A DNA stretch of 64,000 bases, taken from contig NZ_QAAA01000009.1 in NCBI RefSeq assembly GCF_003046545.1, positions 62,001-126,000 of the forward strand, given 5' to 3'. This document shows, piece after piece, positions 15,439 to 63,396 of the stretch (positions within the stretch are counted from its first letter, which is position 1; each line of letters starts with the position of its first letter). The notes beneath the pieces were generated by a model that had not been told where the DNA came from, ran no database searches, and saw only the letters and a list, made by a program, of their open reading frames with translations. Both the position numbers and the translations under genes were made by a program. This DNA is from Rhodovulum imhoffii. Its GTDB lineage: Bacteria; Pseudomonadota; Alphaproteobacteria; Rhodobacterales; Rhodobacteraceae.

Positions 15439-17003
15439 CAGGCCTGTTCCTCGGGTTCTTCCATCCAGTTGCGCAGAATTTCGACCGTTTCAACCTGCCG
15501 GGATTCGATCATCTCGCGCAGGCGGGCCACGGCATCCTCGGTCGGCAGGGCCAGTTGACCGCCATTGCCATTCTCCGACATGGCGCTTACCGGGAAATCG
15601 AAGGCACTGGCCATTTCCACCTCGCCATCCAGGCCCGGCGGCACGGGAAGGGCCTGGAGTTGGCGGGTCAGAATGGGGCGCAGCACGAACAACCCGAGGA
15701 TCAGCGCCACCAGTGCAAGGGCTGCCATCTGGATCAAGGCCATCGGGTGAGACAAAAGCTTGTCCAGTGTGCCGGGGCTGCCAGGGCCCGTTCCCGTGGC
15801 CGGAGCCGATTGCAGCGGCAGAGAACGCAGCGTGATCACGTCGCCACGAGCTTCATCATATCCCACTGCCGAGGCGACGAGGTCATGCAGGGCCTCGATT
15901 TCAGTGTCGGGCAAAGGTGTCCAGCCGGATGTCCCATCGGCGGCGACCGTCTGTTGGCCGTCGATCAGGACTGCAACCGTCAGGCGCCTGATCGCGCCGG
16001 GCTGGCGCAGAACCTCGCGTTCGGTTTCTGAAATCTCGTAATTCGCGCGCTCGCGGGTTTCGGAATCCGTGCGTGCGGAATTTCCACCGCCCTGCGCATC
16101 GCCGTCGGGCAGGTTGCTGGCGACGGTGACCGCGCCGGCCGCTCCGTTTTCGGATTTGGAGGCGCGCTCCTCGCTTTCGGTGCTGATCGCGACGCGGCTT
16201 TCCGGGTCGACGAGACGCTCGCGGATCGATTCGCTTTCGGTCACGGTTTCGACGCTGACTTCGACGACCGAGCGCCCCGGCCCGAGGCGGGCGATCAGCA
16301 GCCGCTCGACATTTTGCCTCAACTCCGCCGCGCGATCGGTTCCGAACATCGCAGCGCCCGGGCCGGTTTCTTCATGCAGAACAATCCCCGATGCGGCGTC
16401 GATCACGGAAACATCGGCAGGGGACATTCCCGCCACCGACGAGGCCACGAGATAGCGCAGTGCTTGCGCCTGATCCGGCCCGATGGCGCCTGCCGCCGCC
16501 GTGACCGTTACCGCGGCGGACGGAGATGCGTCGCGGCGAAACGCTCCGCCCATCGGCCGGGCGATGTGTACCCGTGCGGCCCTGATCCGGGGGCTGGCAA
16601 CGATGGTCCGGGCAAGTTCCCCTTCCTTCGCGCGCCAGTACGCGGCATCGAACATTTGCGATGTGGTGCCGAAGCCGGTCAGGGTGTCCAGAAGTTCGTA
16701 CCCTGCGGCCCCGTTGGCGGGCAGCCCCTCTGTGGCAAGCGTCATGCGCAGGGTGTCGCGCTGTGCGCTGTCGACGAAAATGGCGTTACCGCGAATCTCA
16801 TGTGCGACGCCTTGTTGTTCCAGCGCCCGCACAACACCCCCGGCCGCCGATTCGTCCAGGCCCGAATACAGCAAGGCCATGCCGGGAGTCGCCACGAGAC
16901 GCGACAACATGAGAACAGCCACGAAAACACCGGCCGTCGCCGCAGCAACGATCATCCGTTTTCTGACGTCAAGCTCTGACCAGAGGGCCATGATCTGGGC
17001 CAA
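15438..17003 (-). CDS. fliF: flagellar MS-ring protein FliF
   Basis: Membrane ring on which the basal body assembles. It has an N-terminal membrane segment (about residues 18-36), the YscJ-like periplasmic region with ALLYSGLDESAAGGVVRAL and GYELLDTLTGFGTTSQ, and a second membrane segment near residue 430. The acidic C-terminal tail with REMIESRQVETVEILRNWME is the FliG-binding end. Length (521 residues) is normal. It heads the minus-strand run fliF-fliH-fliN-fliP and shares a divergent promoter region with the fliL-like operon. Confidence 0.96.
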   Translation of the reverse strand: MAQIMALWSELDVRKRMIVAAATAGVFVAVLMLSRLVATPGMALLYSGLDESAAGGVVRALEQQGVAHEIRGNAIFVDSAQRDTLRMTLATEGLPANGAAGYELLDTLTGFGTTSQMFDAAYWRAKEGELARTIVASPRIRAARVHIARPMGGAFRRDASPSAAVTVTAAAGAIGPDQAQALRYLVASSVAGMSPADVSVIDAASGIVLHEETGPGAAMFGTDRAAELRQNVERLLIARLGPGRSVVEVSVETVTESESIRERLVDPESRVAISTESEERASKSENGAAGAVTVASNLPDGDAQGGGNSARTDSETRERANYEISETEREVLRQPGAIRRLTVAVLIDGQQTVAADGTSGWTPLPDTEIEALHDLVASAVGYDEARGDVITLRSLPLQSAPATGTGPGSPGTLDKLLSHPMALIQMAALALVALILGLFVLRPILTRQLQALPVPPGLDGEVEMASAFDFPVSAMSENGNGGQLALPTEDAVARLREMIESRQVETVEILRNWMEEPEEQA

Positions 17004-52096: not shown

Positions 52097-52880
52097 GTCT
52101 TGGTCTCCGTCGGGTTGCCGCCACATGTGACCGGCGGGGTGGCCCTTTCCGCAAGATCACAGGGGGTAAGCAGAGCGCCTTGTCCCATATGCGGCAAGGT
52201 CGTGGCTGTTGGGCCGGAAACGAATCGCGCGGCCCCGAACCCACAGCCCCTGTTGTATTTGCCTGGAAAGTGAAGCGCCCCATGATCTTCTTTCGCCGCC
52301 CCGTAAGCCGGTGCGAAGTTGCCGCGTACATATTCAAGCCTGTGTGCGGCAGACGTTCAATCCCGCCCCGGTTGCAGGGATTGTGGCGACGGGGGGGCGT
52401 AGCCAATTGGCCACAATGCCCCTGGATCCGAGCCTGGCGGCGCTTCAAAGCGTATGGCTGCGGCCCGTGTACGGCAATCCGACCGAAAGAGTGCGAATAC
52501 CCCGATCCATATCTCTGCCCGGCGGGGTCAGGGCCTGAAAACCCCGCCGAATCTGCGCGGCGAACAGAACGGAATTCATACGGTTTCGTGTGGTCCAGAA
52601 GGCGGCCCCCGAAGGTTGGCCCCCGTCCCGGGCGGCGGGCCGCACTATGATACGTTCAGATCTTGAAACTGCTTTGGCGGGCATCGGCGGAATGGCCGGT
52701 CTTCGTCAAACCCTGAAGAGCCGCAGAGCTCCCGATGCCGTGTCACGGCCGCGAGCCCGGCCAGAAAGACCGCCGGAGCCTGAAGATCATCTAAATCTCA
52801 AAACGGATACAGCAAAAGCCATCCACGCGATTTCCCGATCGCGGTGAAACGGCGCCACTGTGTGGTGGCACCGCTTGCGC
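52097..52880. other. 784-bp region between pta-like gene and sdhA; little coding signal
   Basis: Sits where related genomes usually carry sdhB downstream of sdhA, but no iron-sulfur subunit sequence (no CxxCxxC pattern) is present on either strand. Open frames here have irregular codon use. One weak 66-codon frame is listed separately. It must hold the pta-like gene promoter; none is obvious. Confidence 0.45.
52647..52847 (+). CDS. possible small protein, unknown
   Basis: A 66-residue frame starting MIRSDLETALAGIGGMAGLR, followed by a basic, Pro-rich segment (SRPRARPERPPEPEDHLN) and a short helix. No family recognised, no clear ribosome site beyond a G-rich stretch. Codon use is less GC-biased at third positions than in neighbours. 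It faces sdhA tail to tail. Could be spurious. Confidence 0.25.
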   Translation: MIRSDLETALAGIGGMAGLRQTLKSRRAPDAVSRPRARPERPPEPEDHLNLKTDTAKAIHAISRSR

Positions 52881-54686
52881 CTAATAGACCCGCGCCTTCG
52901 GGGCGATTTTTTTCATGTCTATACCACCTGCATCCTGCCCGGTCAGCGGTTCCAGATGTACCGGGCGGTAGGCCAGGGTTACATCGGTTCCGTTCACCCA
53001 GGACAGGGAATGCTTGCGCCAGTTCTCGTCGTCGCGGTCGGGGTAGTCCTCATGGGCGTGGGCACCGCGGCTTTCCTTGCGCGCTTCGGCGCTGACGATG
53101 GTGGCCAGCGCATTGGGCATCAGGTTGGTCAGCTCCAGCGTTTCCATAAGATCGGAGTTCCAGATCAGTGAGCGGTCGGTCACTTTCAGGTCGTCCATCT
53201 TGGACGCAACGCCGGCCATGTTCTCGCAGCCTTCGGCCAGTGTCTTGTCGGTACGGAACACGGCGGCATCGGCCTGCATGGTCTTTTGCATCTCAAGCCG
53301 CAGTTCCGCGGTGGCGACGGTACCATTGGCGTAACGCAGCCCGTCGAAACGCTCCAGGGCCTTGTCGATCGAGGCCCGGTTGGGTGTCGGGACTTCGGAT
53401 TTCGGGTCGACGACCTTGCGGGCACGGATTGCGGCGGCGCGGCCGAACACCACGAGGTCGATCAGCGAGTTCGATCCAAGCCGGTTCGCGCCGTGCACGC
53501 TGGCGCAGCCGGCTTCGCCCACGGCCATCAGGCCCGGTGTGACGCGGTCAGGGTGGTCGGGGGTCGGGTCCAGAACTTCACCCCAGTAGTTGGTGGGGAT
53601 ACCGCCCATGTTGTAGTGCACCGTCGGCAGCACCGGGATCGGTTCCCTGGTGACATCGACGCCGGCAAAGATGCGCGCAGATTCCGAAATGCCCGGCAGA
53701 CGTTCGGCCAGGGTCTCGGGCGGCAGGTGCGACAGGTTCAGGTGGATGTGGTCCCCGTGGGCGCCGACCCCGCGCCCTTCGCGGATCTCCATCGTCATGC
53801 AGCGTGAAACCACATCGCGGCTGGCAAGGTCTTTATAGGTCGGGGCGTAACGCTCCATGAATCGTTCGCCCTCGGCGTTGGTCAGGTAGCCGCCTTCGCC
53901 ACGCGCCCCTTCGGTAATCAGGCAGCCCGCGCCATAGATGCCGGTGGGGTGGAACTGCACGAACTCCATGTCTTGCAGGGGCAGCCCCGCGCGCGCGACC
54001 ATGCCGCCGCCATCGCCGGTACAGGTGTGGGCCGAAGTGGCTGAAAAATAAGCCCGCCCATAGCCGCCGGTGGCCAGAACCACCATTTTCGCGGCAAAAA
54101 CGTGCAGCGACCCGTCATCCAGCTTCCATGCAATCACGCCCTGGCACCGGCCGTCTTCGGACATGAGAAGGTCGATGGCGAAATACTCGATGAAGAACTC
54201 CGCCTTCTGCTTCAGGGATTGTCCATAAAGCGTATGCAGAATCGCGTGGCCGGTGCGGTCGGCGGCGGCGCAGGTGCGTTGTACCGGCGGGCCTTCACCG
54301 AACTCTGTCGTGTGGCCGCCAAAGGGGCGCTGGTAAATCTTGCCGTCCCCGGTCCGCGAGAACGGCACGCCGTAATGTTCCAGTTCGTAAACGGCCTTGG
54401 GCGCTTCACGGGCAAGATATTCCATCGCGTCCGTATCGCCCAGCCAGTCAGAGCCTTTTACCGTGTCGTACATGTGCCATTGCCAGCTGTCCGGGCCCAT
54501 GTTGCCAAGGCTGGCGGCAATCCCGCCCTGCGCGGCGACGGTGTGGCTGCGGGTGGGGAAAACCTTGGTCACACAGGCGGTGCGCAGGCCCTGCTCCGCC
54601 ATGCCCAGCGTGGCGCGCAGGCCCGCGCCGCCAGCCCCCACCACGACCACGTCATATTCATGCACTTCGTATTCGTAAGCGGCCAT
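52881..54686 (-). CDS. sdhA: succinate dehydrogenase flavoprotein subunit
   Basis: Catalytic subunit of complex II oxidising succinate to fumarate. It has [20 protein letters not shown] (FAD fold), the flavinylation-site region [17 protein letters not shown], and [20 protein letters not shown], plus the C-terminal [20 protein letters not shown] with active-site Arg/His. ATG 54686 gives 601 residues, the usual length; the longer frame to 54713 adds a non-homologous leader. Last gene of sdhC-sdhD-sdhA. sdhB is not downstream. Confidence 0.97.
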
Positions 54687-54702: not shown

Positions 54703-55074
54703 TTACATCGCAATGCGGATGACGGCGTAGATGCCGGTCGCCATCGCGGTGTAGGTGATGCAGGTCGTCGCGATCAGAAGCGTTTTGCAGAACAGACCGC
54801 GGGTGTAATCTTCGATGGCGACGGTGACACCGCGCTTGAAGTGATGCAGCCCGACCCAGAAGGTCAGCAGGGCGACCATGGCGGGGAAGGGGCGCGAGAA
54901 TGTGGAGATCGTGTCCGCGTGGCTGCCGCCCAGCGCGGAGCCGAAGAAATACACGAAAAACGGGACCAGCCCGACCAGCGCAACCGCGCTGACGACCGTT
55001 TGCCAATGCTCCTGTGTGCCGGAGCGGGCACTGCCGAAGCCCTGGGCCAGTTTGCGGTTGGTGACGTAACGCAT
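54703..55074 (-). CDS. sdhD: succinate dehydrogenase membrane anchor subunit
   Basis: Hydrophobic anchor of complex II. The 123-residue protein has three membrane segments, with [20 protein letters not shown], then [20 protein letters not shown] carrying the likely heme-ligand histidine, [20 protein letters not shown], and a final segment. Start 55074 has GAGGAA seven bases upstream; an ATG at 55089 overlapping the sdhC stop is an alternative. Confidence 0.93.
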
Positions 55075-55085
55075 GGCGGAATTCC

Positions 55086-55469
55086 TCATATGACCAGCAC
55101 CGTCAGCAGAGTCAGGACACCGGAGCCGACGATCACGGCCATGCCCAGCTTTTGCGCAGTTTCAAGCTCCAGCCCGTGGCCGGTATCCCAGATCAGGTGA
55201 CGGATTCCCGCGAGGCCGTGATACCACAGCGCCCAGAGAGACAGGAACATTACGCCATCCCCCAGCCACGAGGTCAGGAACCAGTTGGCGCGGGCATAGG
55301 CTTCGGGACCTTTCGCGGCGGCGATGAACCACCAGACGATCAGAATCGCTCCGACGATCAGCGCGTTTCCGGTGATCCGGGTGAAGATCGAGGTGACCGA
55401 GGTAATCTGGGGCCGGTAGATCTGGAGGTGGGGAGACAGGGGCCGGTTCCCCCGGTTCAGTTCAGGCAT
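55086..55469 (-). CDS. sdhC: succinate dehydrogenase cytochrome b556 subunit
   Basis: Heme-binding membrane subunit. It has the family opening RPLSPHLQIYRPQITSVTSI with SIFTRITG (quinone-site Ser/Arg region) and HGLAGIRHLIWDTGHGLE with the heme His. Three membrane segments, 127 residues. ATG 55469 follows GAGGGA. First gene of the operon; a paired GTGATCAC operator lies 120-148 bp upstream. Confidence 0.95.
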   Translation of the reverse strand: MPELNRGNRPLSPHLQIYRPQITSVTSIFTRITGNALIVGAILIVWWFIAAAKGPEAYARANWFLTSWLGDGVMFLSLWALWYHGLAGIRHLIWDTGHGLELETAQKLGMAVIVGSGVLTLLTVLVI

Positions 55470-55588
55470 GGCTGTCCCTCTCTGGCGACCTATTGTTGCG
55501 GCTGTGATAACGTTTTTTTTGCCGGAGTCACTGCTTTCACGACTTTCGGCGGCAAATTTTTGCGACGATCGGGGAAAATCCACACTTT

Positions 55589-55617
55589 GTGATCACGCAC
55601 GCCGCACACGTGATCAC
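55589..55617 (-). promoter_or_regulatory. paired GTGATCAC operator upstream of sdhC
   Basis: GTGATCAC at 55589-55596 and at 55610-55617, separated by 13 bp (centres 21 bp apart, about two helix turns). On the sdhC strand the gene-proximal copy continues as GTGATCACAAAGTGTGGA. The same arrangement, with the same spacer length and nearly the same extension, occurs before sucC. Each unit is a perfect palindrome. The cognate regulator is unknown. Confidence 0.75.
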
Positions 55618-61344: not shown

Positions 61345-61781
61345 GGCAGGATGTTACTGCCGTGGTCTCCGGATTCCGGCGCGGCAGTTAAAAAGGACAA
61401 AGCCTTTGCAAGAATTCCCCTGTGCCCGTCCGGGCGTCGGATACGGCGCCGTGTGGCAGCGTTGCAAGGGGGGCTGCTGCAGGGGAATTGCGGAGAGGGT
61501 GGCTTTTCCGAACGTCCGCTTTTCATGGTCTCCCGCGTGTCATCGGAAATGCCCGCCGGGACGCAATCGGCGTTGCCGCCGGTGATGCGAATCACGGATT
61601 TCACAAGCGCCCCCACTGCGCCAAGTTGTCTCACACCGGCGTCGTGATCACGCCCGCCTCCAGTGTGATCACAAATTGTGGAAAAATCTTGGAAAAGTAG
61701 AATCAGGGTCGAAAGCTCTTTAAACCGACTGCGTTCCTGTGCCACATCTGGAAACGGTAAGCACCAGCATGGGACAGCTTG
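61345..61781. other. 437-bp region upstream of sucC; regulatory
   Basis: No gene recognised. The left 280 bp are featureless GC-rich sequence; the right part holds the paired GTGATCAC operator, a probable promoter with TTGTGG (61676-61681), 16-bp spacer and TAGAAT (61698-61703), and then a 78-bp leader to the sucC start. Confidence 0.5.
61644..61672 (+). promoter_or_regulatory. paired GTGATCAC operator upstream of sucC
   Basis: GTGATCAC at 61644-61651 and 61665-61672 with a 13-bp spacer, continuing on the gene side as GTGATCACAAATTGTGGA. The downstream part overlaps the likely -35 TTGTGG, so the pair sits directly upstream of the promoter. Same architecture and orientation as before sdhC; extension differs by one base over 18. 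Confidence 0.75.
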
Positions 61782-62975
61782 ATGAACATTCATGAATACC
61801 AGGCGAAGGCGCTTCTTCGCAGTTATGGGGCGCCGGTCTCCGACGGCCAGATCGTCACCCGCGCGGAAGAGGCGAAAACCGCGGCGGGCAAGCTGGATGG
61901 CCCGGTCTGGGTGGTAAAGGCCCAGATTCATGCCGGGGGGCGTGGCAAGGGCCGCTTTGCGGAAGCCGAAGCCGGAGAAAAGGGTGGTGTACGCCTGACC
62001 AGATCGGTGAGCGAGGCCGCCGAAGAAGCCCGGAAGATGCTGGGCCGTACCCTTGTGACGCACCAGACCGGCCCGGCGGGCAAACAGGTCGGTCGCGTTT
62101 ACATCGAGGAAGGCTCCGGTATCGCGCGTGAGCTTTACCTCGCGCTGCTGGTGGACCGTCAGACAAGTCGCGTCGCGTTCGTTTGCTCGACCGAAGGCGG
62201 CATGGACATCGAGGAGGTCGCGGCGGCGACGCCCGGGAAGATTCTGTCCTTCAGCGTCGACCCGGTGACCGGCTATCAGCCCTATCATGGCCGCCGCATC
62301 GCCTTTGCGCTGGAGCTGGAGGGCCAGCAGGTCAAGCAATGCGTGCGTCTGATGGGTCAGCTTTACAAGCTGTTCATGGAAAAAGACTGCGAGATGCTGG
62401 AGATCAACCCGTTGATCGTCACCGATGTGGGCGACCTCAAATGCCTCGATGCCAAGATGGGCTTCGATTCCAATGCGCTGTACCGGCATGAGGACATCCT
62501 TGCCCTGCGCGACGAATCCGAAGAGGACCCCAAGGAGCTTCAGGCTTCCCGGTACGACCTGAACTACATTGCCCTGGAGGGTGAGATCGGCTGCATGGTC
62601 AATGGTGCCGGCCTGGCGATGGCGACGATGGATATCATCAAGCTTTACGGGGCCGAGCCGGCCAACTTCCTGGATGTGGGCGGCGGCGCCACCAAGGAAA
62701 AAGTGACCGAAGCATTCAAGATCATCACCTCGGACGAGAACGTCAAAGGTATTCTGGTGAACATCTTCGGCGGGATCATGCGCTGCGATGTCATCGCCGA
62801 AGGCGTCGTGGCCGCGGTGAAGGAGGTGGGCCTTCAGGTGCCGCTGGTCGTACGGCTGGAAGGGACCAACGTGGAGAAGGGCAAGGCCATCATCAATGAC
62901 TCCGGCCTGAACGTGATCGCTGCGGACAACCTGTCCGACGCGGCGGAGAAGATCGTGAAGGCGGTGAAGGGGTAG
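61782..62975 (+). CDS. sucC: succinyl-CoA synthetase beta subunit
   Basis: TCA-cycle enzyme subunit with ATP-grasp fold. It starts [20 protein letters not shown], has [40 protein letters not shown] and [20 protein letters not shown], plus [20 protein letters not shown] and [20 protein letters not shown]. 397 residues is normal. ATG 61782; a second ATG three codons on is not favoured. Its partner sucD follows after an unrelated gene. Confidence 0.97.
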
Positions 62976-62979
62976 GAGC

Positions 62980-63396
62980 ATGAAAACCGGATTTTTTGCC
63001 TGTACAATTGCATTGGGGTTCATGACCCAATTCGCCCAAGCCGGTGCGATCGACACGTTTCGCCAGATCTGTGTTTCAAATGCCGGAAACCCCTCGGCAA
63101 TCATAGCGGCGGGTAACAAGGCTGGCTTTGGAATGGAGAAGATGGCAGTTGGGGCGATTGGATTTCGCACGAAGACCGATGAAAGTCTGCAGGTCAATGT
63201 CGCGACGAAGCACAAATTCGAATGTGCCGTGACAACATCCGACATGGCTAACTTCGAACAGGTGCGTGCCGATTTTTTCAAATCGCTCGGGCTGAAACCG
63301 AAGAGAGGCACCGCACGGGGTATTATCGGCGGCAAGACCTATACATTCCTTCATGACACCAGAGGCGGCGAAGCCTTTGTGATGTTCTCAAACTGA
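62980..63396 (+). CDS. small secreted protein of unknown function within sucCD
   Basis: A 138-residue protein with a cleavable signal peptide (ends FAQAGA). The mature part has [19 protein letters not shown], a Cys pair (one near the start, one in [10 protein letters not shown]) that could form a disulfide, and [19 protein letters not shown]. No family recognised. It starts four bases after the sucC stop with GGGGTAGGAG-type ribosome site and ends 14 bp before sucD. Codon use is AT-richer than sucC. A periplasmic protein inside a TCA operon is unexpected. Confidence 0.75.

Follow-up and report, generated by a model that had tools for sequence, protein, structure and literature searches.

Probable twin AkgR operators upstream of sdhC and sucC, and an A/T ladder at the helical repeat between operator and promoter, in Rhodovulum imhoffii and related Rhodobacteraceae

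The 64,000-nucleotide stretch of Rhodovulum imhoffii DNA analysed here (the window) carries sdhC, sdhD and sdhA on the minus strand and sucC on the plus strand (Table 1). Upstream of sdhC and of sucC lies the same arrangement of two GTGATCAC palindromes, followed towards the gene by candidate promoter elements and, at sdhC, by a stretch in which A/T content rises and falls with the turns of the helix. As for the wider gene order, sdhB (a Fer2_3 match, G000:C4:61563-61877) is found on another contig, apart from sdhCDA, genes that look by eye like pta and ackA come after sdhA (window 52126-52881) and an ORF of 138 aa sits between sucC and sucD (window 62980-63396).

Table 1. Genes, operator sites and promoter features in the window (window coordinates; plus signs in feature names count bases from the proximal operator towards the gene)
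Feature	Position	Strand	Basis or remark
sdhC	55086..55469	-	TIGR02970, 129.6 bits
sdhD	54703..55089	-	TIGR02968, 43.4 bits (cut-off 41.8)
sdhA	52881..54686	-	TIGR01816, 937 bits; start chosen by eye
sucC	61782..62975	+	NF001913, 585 bits
sdhC operator, proximal GTGATCAC	55589..55596	-	exact match
sdhC operator, distal GTGATCAC, N13 spacer	55610..55617	-	exact match
sucC operator, distal GTGATCAC	61644..61651	+	exact match
sucC operator, proximal GTGATCAC	61665..61672	+	exact match
sdhC A/T ladder, +1 to +55 from proximal operator	55534..55588	-	10.4-bp power
Stretch holding the ladder in relatives (sucC)	61673..61727	+	no detectable ladder in this species' sucC
Predicted sdhC -35, GTGACT	55526..55531	-	GTGAC conserved in sdhC promoters
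Predicted sdhC -10, TATCAC	55504..55509	-	promoter scoring
Candidate sucC -35-like TTTAAA, conserved place +47	61719..61724	+	de novo two-block motif
Promoter-like pair TTGTGG-N16-TAGAAT	61676..61703	+	best-scoring, this species only; TTGTGG at 61676-61681, TAGAAT at 61698-61703

That sdhC and sucC are preceded by an identically spaced double GTGATCAC had been claimed in a preliminary description of this DNA and is borne out by our analysis: both 29-bp GTGATCAC-N13-GTGATCAC elements were confirmed exactly and are the only perfect N13 pairs in the 2.9-Mb genome (2,909,339 bases), each of them 5' of a TCA operon. Chance had been judged unlikely as their origin, and indeed about 0.0006 such pairs would be expected from 41 sites (41 x 41 / 2.9 Mb) where two were found. 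Single copies of GTGATCAC are not enriched genome-wide, since the 41 seen come near the ~46 expected on scaling up from the window, and as 12 of the 15 copies (out of 41) that were placed against a rough ORF call fall within predicted ORFs, the single copies, unlike the pairs, seem to be placed at random. In the 64-kb window the motif occurs five times against 1.01 expected, and one out of 100 shuffles reached five; one more single copy, apart from the operators, lies at 15832-15839. When up to three mismatches to the paired element were allowed, the genome yielded 39 places, two of them perfect (sdhC, sucC) and the next four with two mismatches, and with just two perfect pairs in the genome we reject the idea that the pair is scattered across it.

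Both elements continue on the gene side as GTGATCACAAA(G/T)TGTGGA, and this identity, likewise pointed out before, is correct for this genome. Among relatives, however, AAA is conserved and TGTGGA is not, and we reject the latter as a conserved part of the operator.

The pair itself is widely kept. Among close relatives it is perfect 5' of sucC in 33 of 36 (N13 in 29, N12 in 4) and, of the three other loci, two carry one mismatch, whereas the third belongs to a genome with two copies of sucC, the other of which is paired; locus L062 was dropped before counting as the other sucC copy of its genome has a perfect pair. Upstream of sdhC, 21 of 23 named relatives have it, and at more distant sucC loci it was found in 0 of 44. 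Across 100 genera sampled from the family, perfect pairs (N11-N15) are present in 89, with two pairs in 70 genera, one in 18, three in one and none in 11. When 60 pair loci were fetched, one per genome, a script assigned 33 to suc and 23 to sdh, and among the remaining four the neighbours identify two as sdh loci, one lies 5' of a fumC-like gene and one is unclear. The spacing is fixed at 21 bp, sometimes 20, from centre to centre. Hence a scan of genome and relatives found the pair conserved in orthologous promoters rather than scattered, and the 21-bp spacing and the conservation together support, at the level of sequence, the earlier proposal that a single regulator would bind two sites on one helix face and co-control sdh and suc. 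As to departures from the usual two loci, the genome of Roseovarius sp. 217 (G100, locus L062) has two close copies of sucC (84-85% to the query) with a twin operator at one only, and in G042 a third twin GTGATCAC site (L211, position 1501) precedes a fumC-like (fumarase) gene, which would be a further TCA step on the succinate side.

As to the regulator, we take AkgR to be RSP_0981, as reportedly described by Imam et al. (2015, mBio). According to PMC6365646, GTGATCAC is a published AkgR motif of Rhodobacter sphaeroides, and PMC4344238 gives RSP_0981, a GntR protein, as predicted regulator of sucCD, sdh and sucAB-lpd, its predicted targets thus being succinyl-CoA synthetase, succinate dehydrogenase and alpha-ketoglutarate dehydrogenase. 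In R. imhoffii, GTGATCAC is present at both operators, these lie 5' of the sdh and suc operons and the genome encodes an AkgR orthologue (G000:C9:132985-133632; 216 aa with GntR and FCD domains) 7 kb beyond the window, where the suc operon ends. Its neighbours read as lpdA, sucB, sucA and sucD, and akgR is convergent with and adjoins the lpdA-like gene. The protein is 77% identical to that of another sampled genome, G051, where both twin sites are present and where the gene order (sdhC-D-A, a small gene, sdhB, a DUF1127-like gene, GntR) fits RSP_0974 to RSP_0981, with the GntR orthologue two genes past sdhB in the position expected of RSP_0981. G051 is probably R. sphaeroides 2.4.1. The operator very probably belongs to the known regulator AkgR, so the novelty first claimed for it falls; the preliminary description had not recognised the motif as that of FnrL, CceR, RegA or any other regulator known in the group, and an unknown regulator is rejected here on the grounds that motif and predicted targets are already published for AkgR (PMC6365646 and PMC4344238).

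Orthologue and operator travel together. An akgR orthologue (at least 58% identity) occurs in 87 of the 100 sampled genera, and both orthologue and pair are found in 86, the orthologue only in one, the pair only in three and neither in ten (Fisher P = 1.8e-10, a value that overstates independence because the genomes are related). In the one genome with orthologue only (G040), a pair that is one mismatch short of perfect lies 5' of sucC, and the three with pair only (G019, G033, G096) are 91, 74 and 77% complete, G033 having a 47% homologue. GntR-type matches number ten in R. imhoffii, eight of them over the cut-off. A paralogue at C4:77702 was considered as AkgR because, by the RSP numbering, AkgR would belong beside sdh, and was ruled out by the gene order of G051. 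A 36%-identical GntR paralogue of AkgR (L238:7664-8464) has neighbours that by eye look like a polyamine ABC transporter and amine oxidases.

The regulator gene carries the motif as well: GTGATCAC sits just 5' of the akgR start codon in 25 of the 30 orthologue loci with the best matches (23 of 28 readable by script plus the remaining two), and five loci, G051 included, are without it. The site is found 3' of the -35 and 5' of the start codon; in 19 of 24 measured cases its first base follows that of a TTGA by exactly 18 nt, which places it over the spacer and -10 region. Since it overlaps these elements, its position suggests that AkgR may repress its own gene.

Between twin operator and promoter, A/T content oscillates with a period of 10.2 bp in suc and 10.4 bp in sdh promoters, with no difference between the named and the replication set. 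After thinning to less than 60% identity (suc from 69 to 62, sdh from 45 to 44 promoters; sdhC of L051 and L070, which lack a perfect pair, were left out), the power at this period was 0.0514 in suc (n=62) vs 0.0154 after dinucleotide shuffling (200 shuffles, maximum 0.020) and 0.0793 in sdh (n=44) vs 0.0150 (largest of 200: 0.0218). A per-column null of random shifts ignores shared ancestry and therefore the test was redone per sequence with dinucleotide shuffles, thinning and unrelated promoters, whereupon the promoters that individually exceeded their own 95% null numbered 46 of 62 in suc and 40 of 44 in sdh. Maxima fall at +2, +11, +22, +32 and +42 in suc (n=60) and at +2, +11, +21, +32 and +42 in sdh (n=41), so that A/T tracts at the helical period, 5' of the -35, characterise the 62 suc and 44 sdh promoters. 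The signal stays when operator flank and promoter elements are removed by restricting the analysis to +16 to +55 (0 of 300 shuffles reach it). At suc +11 the 62 promoters show 31 A and 29 T, i.e. the letters interchange. As for R. imhoffii itself, the 10.4-bp power of its sdhC promoter was reached by 2 of 2000 shuffles over +1 to +55 and by 5 of 2000 over +1 to +90, and a ladder was not detected in its sucC promoter, where 1262 of 2000 shuffles gave at least as much power (+1 to +90). In a wedge model with assumed parameters, 60 bp of the ladder would bend by 36.1 (suc) and 45.0 degrees (sdh) vs 23.2 and 21.6 degrees when shuffled, the figures for mdh being 17.2 vs 16.5 degrees. In the literature on A-tracts or on suc, sdh and GntR that was searched, we found no description of such a helical A/T ladder.

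Could the ladder serve some other factor, for instance a nucleoid protein like HU or MucR, or mark promoters that are AT-phased in general, and be unrelated to AkgR? Phasing of A/T close to the helical period (~11 bp) is common in bacterial genomes (PMC4132750), and a weaker 10.4-bp signal also runs 5' of the distal operator (0.0213 and 0.0165 vs 0.0112; reached in 0 and 1 of 300), both of which would fit this alternative. Against it, the phase of the ladder is locked to the operator with a coherence of 0.90 in suc and sdh alike (phases 0.83 and 0.99 bp), and the signal was not found upstream of mdh (29 regions), in coding stretches of sucC (29) or in akgR promoters (23). Nine sucC promoters from the same family but without operator show no detectable ladder (0.0133 vs 0.0112, 266 of 1000 shuffles), nor do 44 sucC promoters from other alphaproteobacteria (0.0129, 169 of 1000 shuffles), whereas those with operator do at the same place (n=36, 0.0393, 0 of 1000 shuffles). 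To our minds, then, a ladder unrelated to AkgR is unlikely, albeit the best of the alternatives, and we prefer to see it as part of the AkgR-controlled promoters.

Where the promoter lies relative to the operator bears on how AkgR would act. Looked for in +41 to +100 of sdhC promoters, GTGAC occurs 48 to 81 bp past the proximal operator in 20 of 22, mostly at +58 to +61, and TAnnnC-like -10 elements follow ~22 bp beyond it. For sucC, a de novo two-block search beginning at +36 returned two elements that each occur in 37 of 69 promoters, TTTATT (+47/+48) and GTATAC (+70/+71). Conserved core-promoter elements hence lie 48-82 bp past the operator, which places the two sites near -98/-119 (sdh) and -87/-108 (suc) relative to predicted starts, and the distances of suc and sdh core elements from the operator differ by about one helical turn, again judged from predicted starts. 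This speaks to a reading in which AkgR is a class II-like activator with its proximal site touching the -35. It had been noted that the extension at sucC overlaps a predicted -35, and in R. imhoffii the pair TTGTGG-N16-TAGAAT, right beside the operator, does score best; however, it keeps no conserved place among 35 related sucC promoters, while the elements that do are found farther downstream (within the range from +36 on that the sucC search covered) and sdhC has its GTGAC near +59 in most promoters. That conserved elements lie farther from the operator speaks against a class II position, and we consider a class II-like mode of AkgR action improbable.

Even less probable, in fact highly unlikely, is that a GntR paralogue instead of the AkgR orthologue binds the pair, for although eight GntR-type HTH matches exceed the cut-off, the paralogue at C4:77702 is 36% identical to AkgR and related GntR proteins may have the motif in common (PMC6365646), the cluster of that paralogue reads by eye as polyamine transport and its 3.2-kb locus contains no GTGATCAC, while the AkgR orthologue stands beside the suc operon, co-occurs with the pairs and has the site in its own promoter.

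Taken together, we favour a joint explanation, at a probability of roughly 0.85, in which an AkgR twin operator would control sdhCDA and suc (from sucC onward), with the ladder, activation at a distance and self-repression of akgR as its components. As the sites are 21 bp apart, i.e. two helical turns, two AkgR dimers would sit next to each other on the same helix face, and from ~87/108 bp (suc) and 98/119 bp (sdh) 5' of the transcription start they would activate. The A/T ladder may curve the DNA and/or dock the C-terminal domain of the RNA polymerase alpha subunit in the right register, and would thereby keep operator and promoter in helical phase. We infer from these sequence patterns that the twin operator probably activates at a distance, helped by curvature and/or alpha-subunit docking, and AkgR in turn may repress akgR from the site that covers the spacer and -10 region.

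More tentatively, and at somewhat less than even odds, the arrangement may amount to a built-in DNA ruler made up of the twin operator, five A/T tracts spaced by exactly one turn over about four turns (+2 to +42) and the core promoter. Such a ruler would set suc and sdh promoters about one helical turn apart in distance and would bring operator, curvature and RNA polymerase into one activating nucleoprotein complex; that complex would turn on the succinate steps of the TCA cycle together, with the one akgR site stopping synthesis of the regulator. Since the tracts keep their register while A and T swap freely, selection would seem to act on the shape of the DNA and not on its letters. If so, two unrelated promoters from dozens of genera, whose A/T content follows the phase of an activator operator at the helical repeat and in which A and T are freely exchanged, would offer direct evidence of selection on DNA shape from activator to promoter, and the long-discussed idea that curved or alpha-docking DNA is part of activation geometry becomes testable. 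The twin site may also provide a rule for finding AkgR targets, for instance the fumC gene in one genome.

How does this compare with known systems? The same palindrome, GTGATCAC, is reported for PS417_07240 of Pseudomonas simiae, a GntR regulator of deoxyribonate oxidation with 32% identity to AkgR, yet as a single site and for a different pathway (PMC6365646). CceR, a LacI family protein, is also predicted to regulate sdh, along with mdh, in R. sphaeroides, but its motif, [AGT]GTT-N6-8-AAC[ACT], differs from GTGATCAC found here (PMC4344238). The AkgR (RSP_0981) regulon of R. sphaeroides shares with our case a GntR-family regulator, the GTGATCAC motif and the predicted targets (sucCD, sdh, sucAB-lpd); the fixed 20/21-bp spacing, the ladder and the site at akgR itself were not found in the AkgR literature searched, and Imam 2015 may contain some of these. 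The AkgR motif and the predicted suc and sdh targets were known already, and what is new, as far as the literature searched goes, is the helical A/T ladder together with a new member species. UP elements and phased A-tracts 5' of a promoter bind the alpha subunit of RNA polymerase. The ladder resembles them in having A/T tracts one helical turn apart 5' of the -35 and differs from them in that here the tracts extend as far as the operator of an activator, with which they keep phase.
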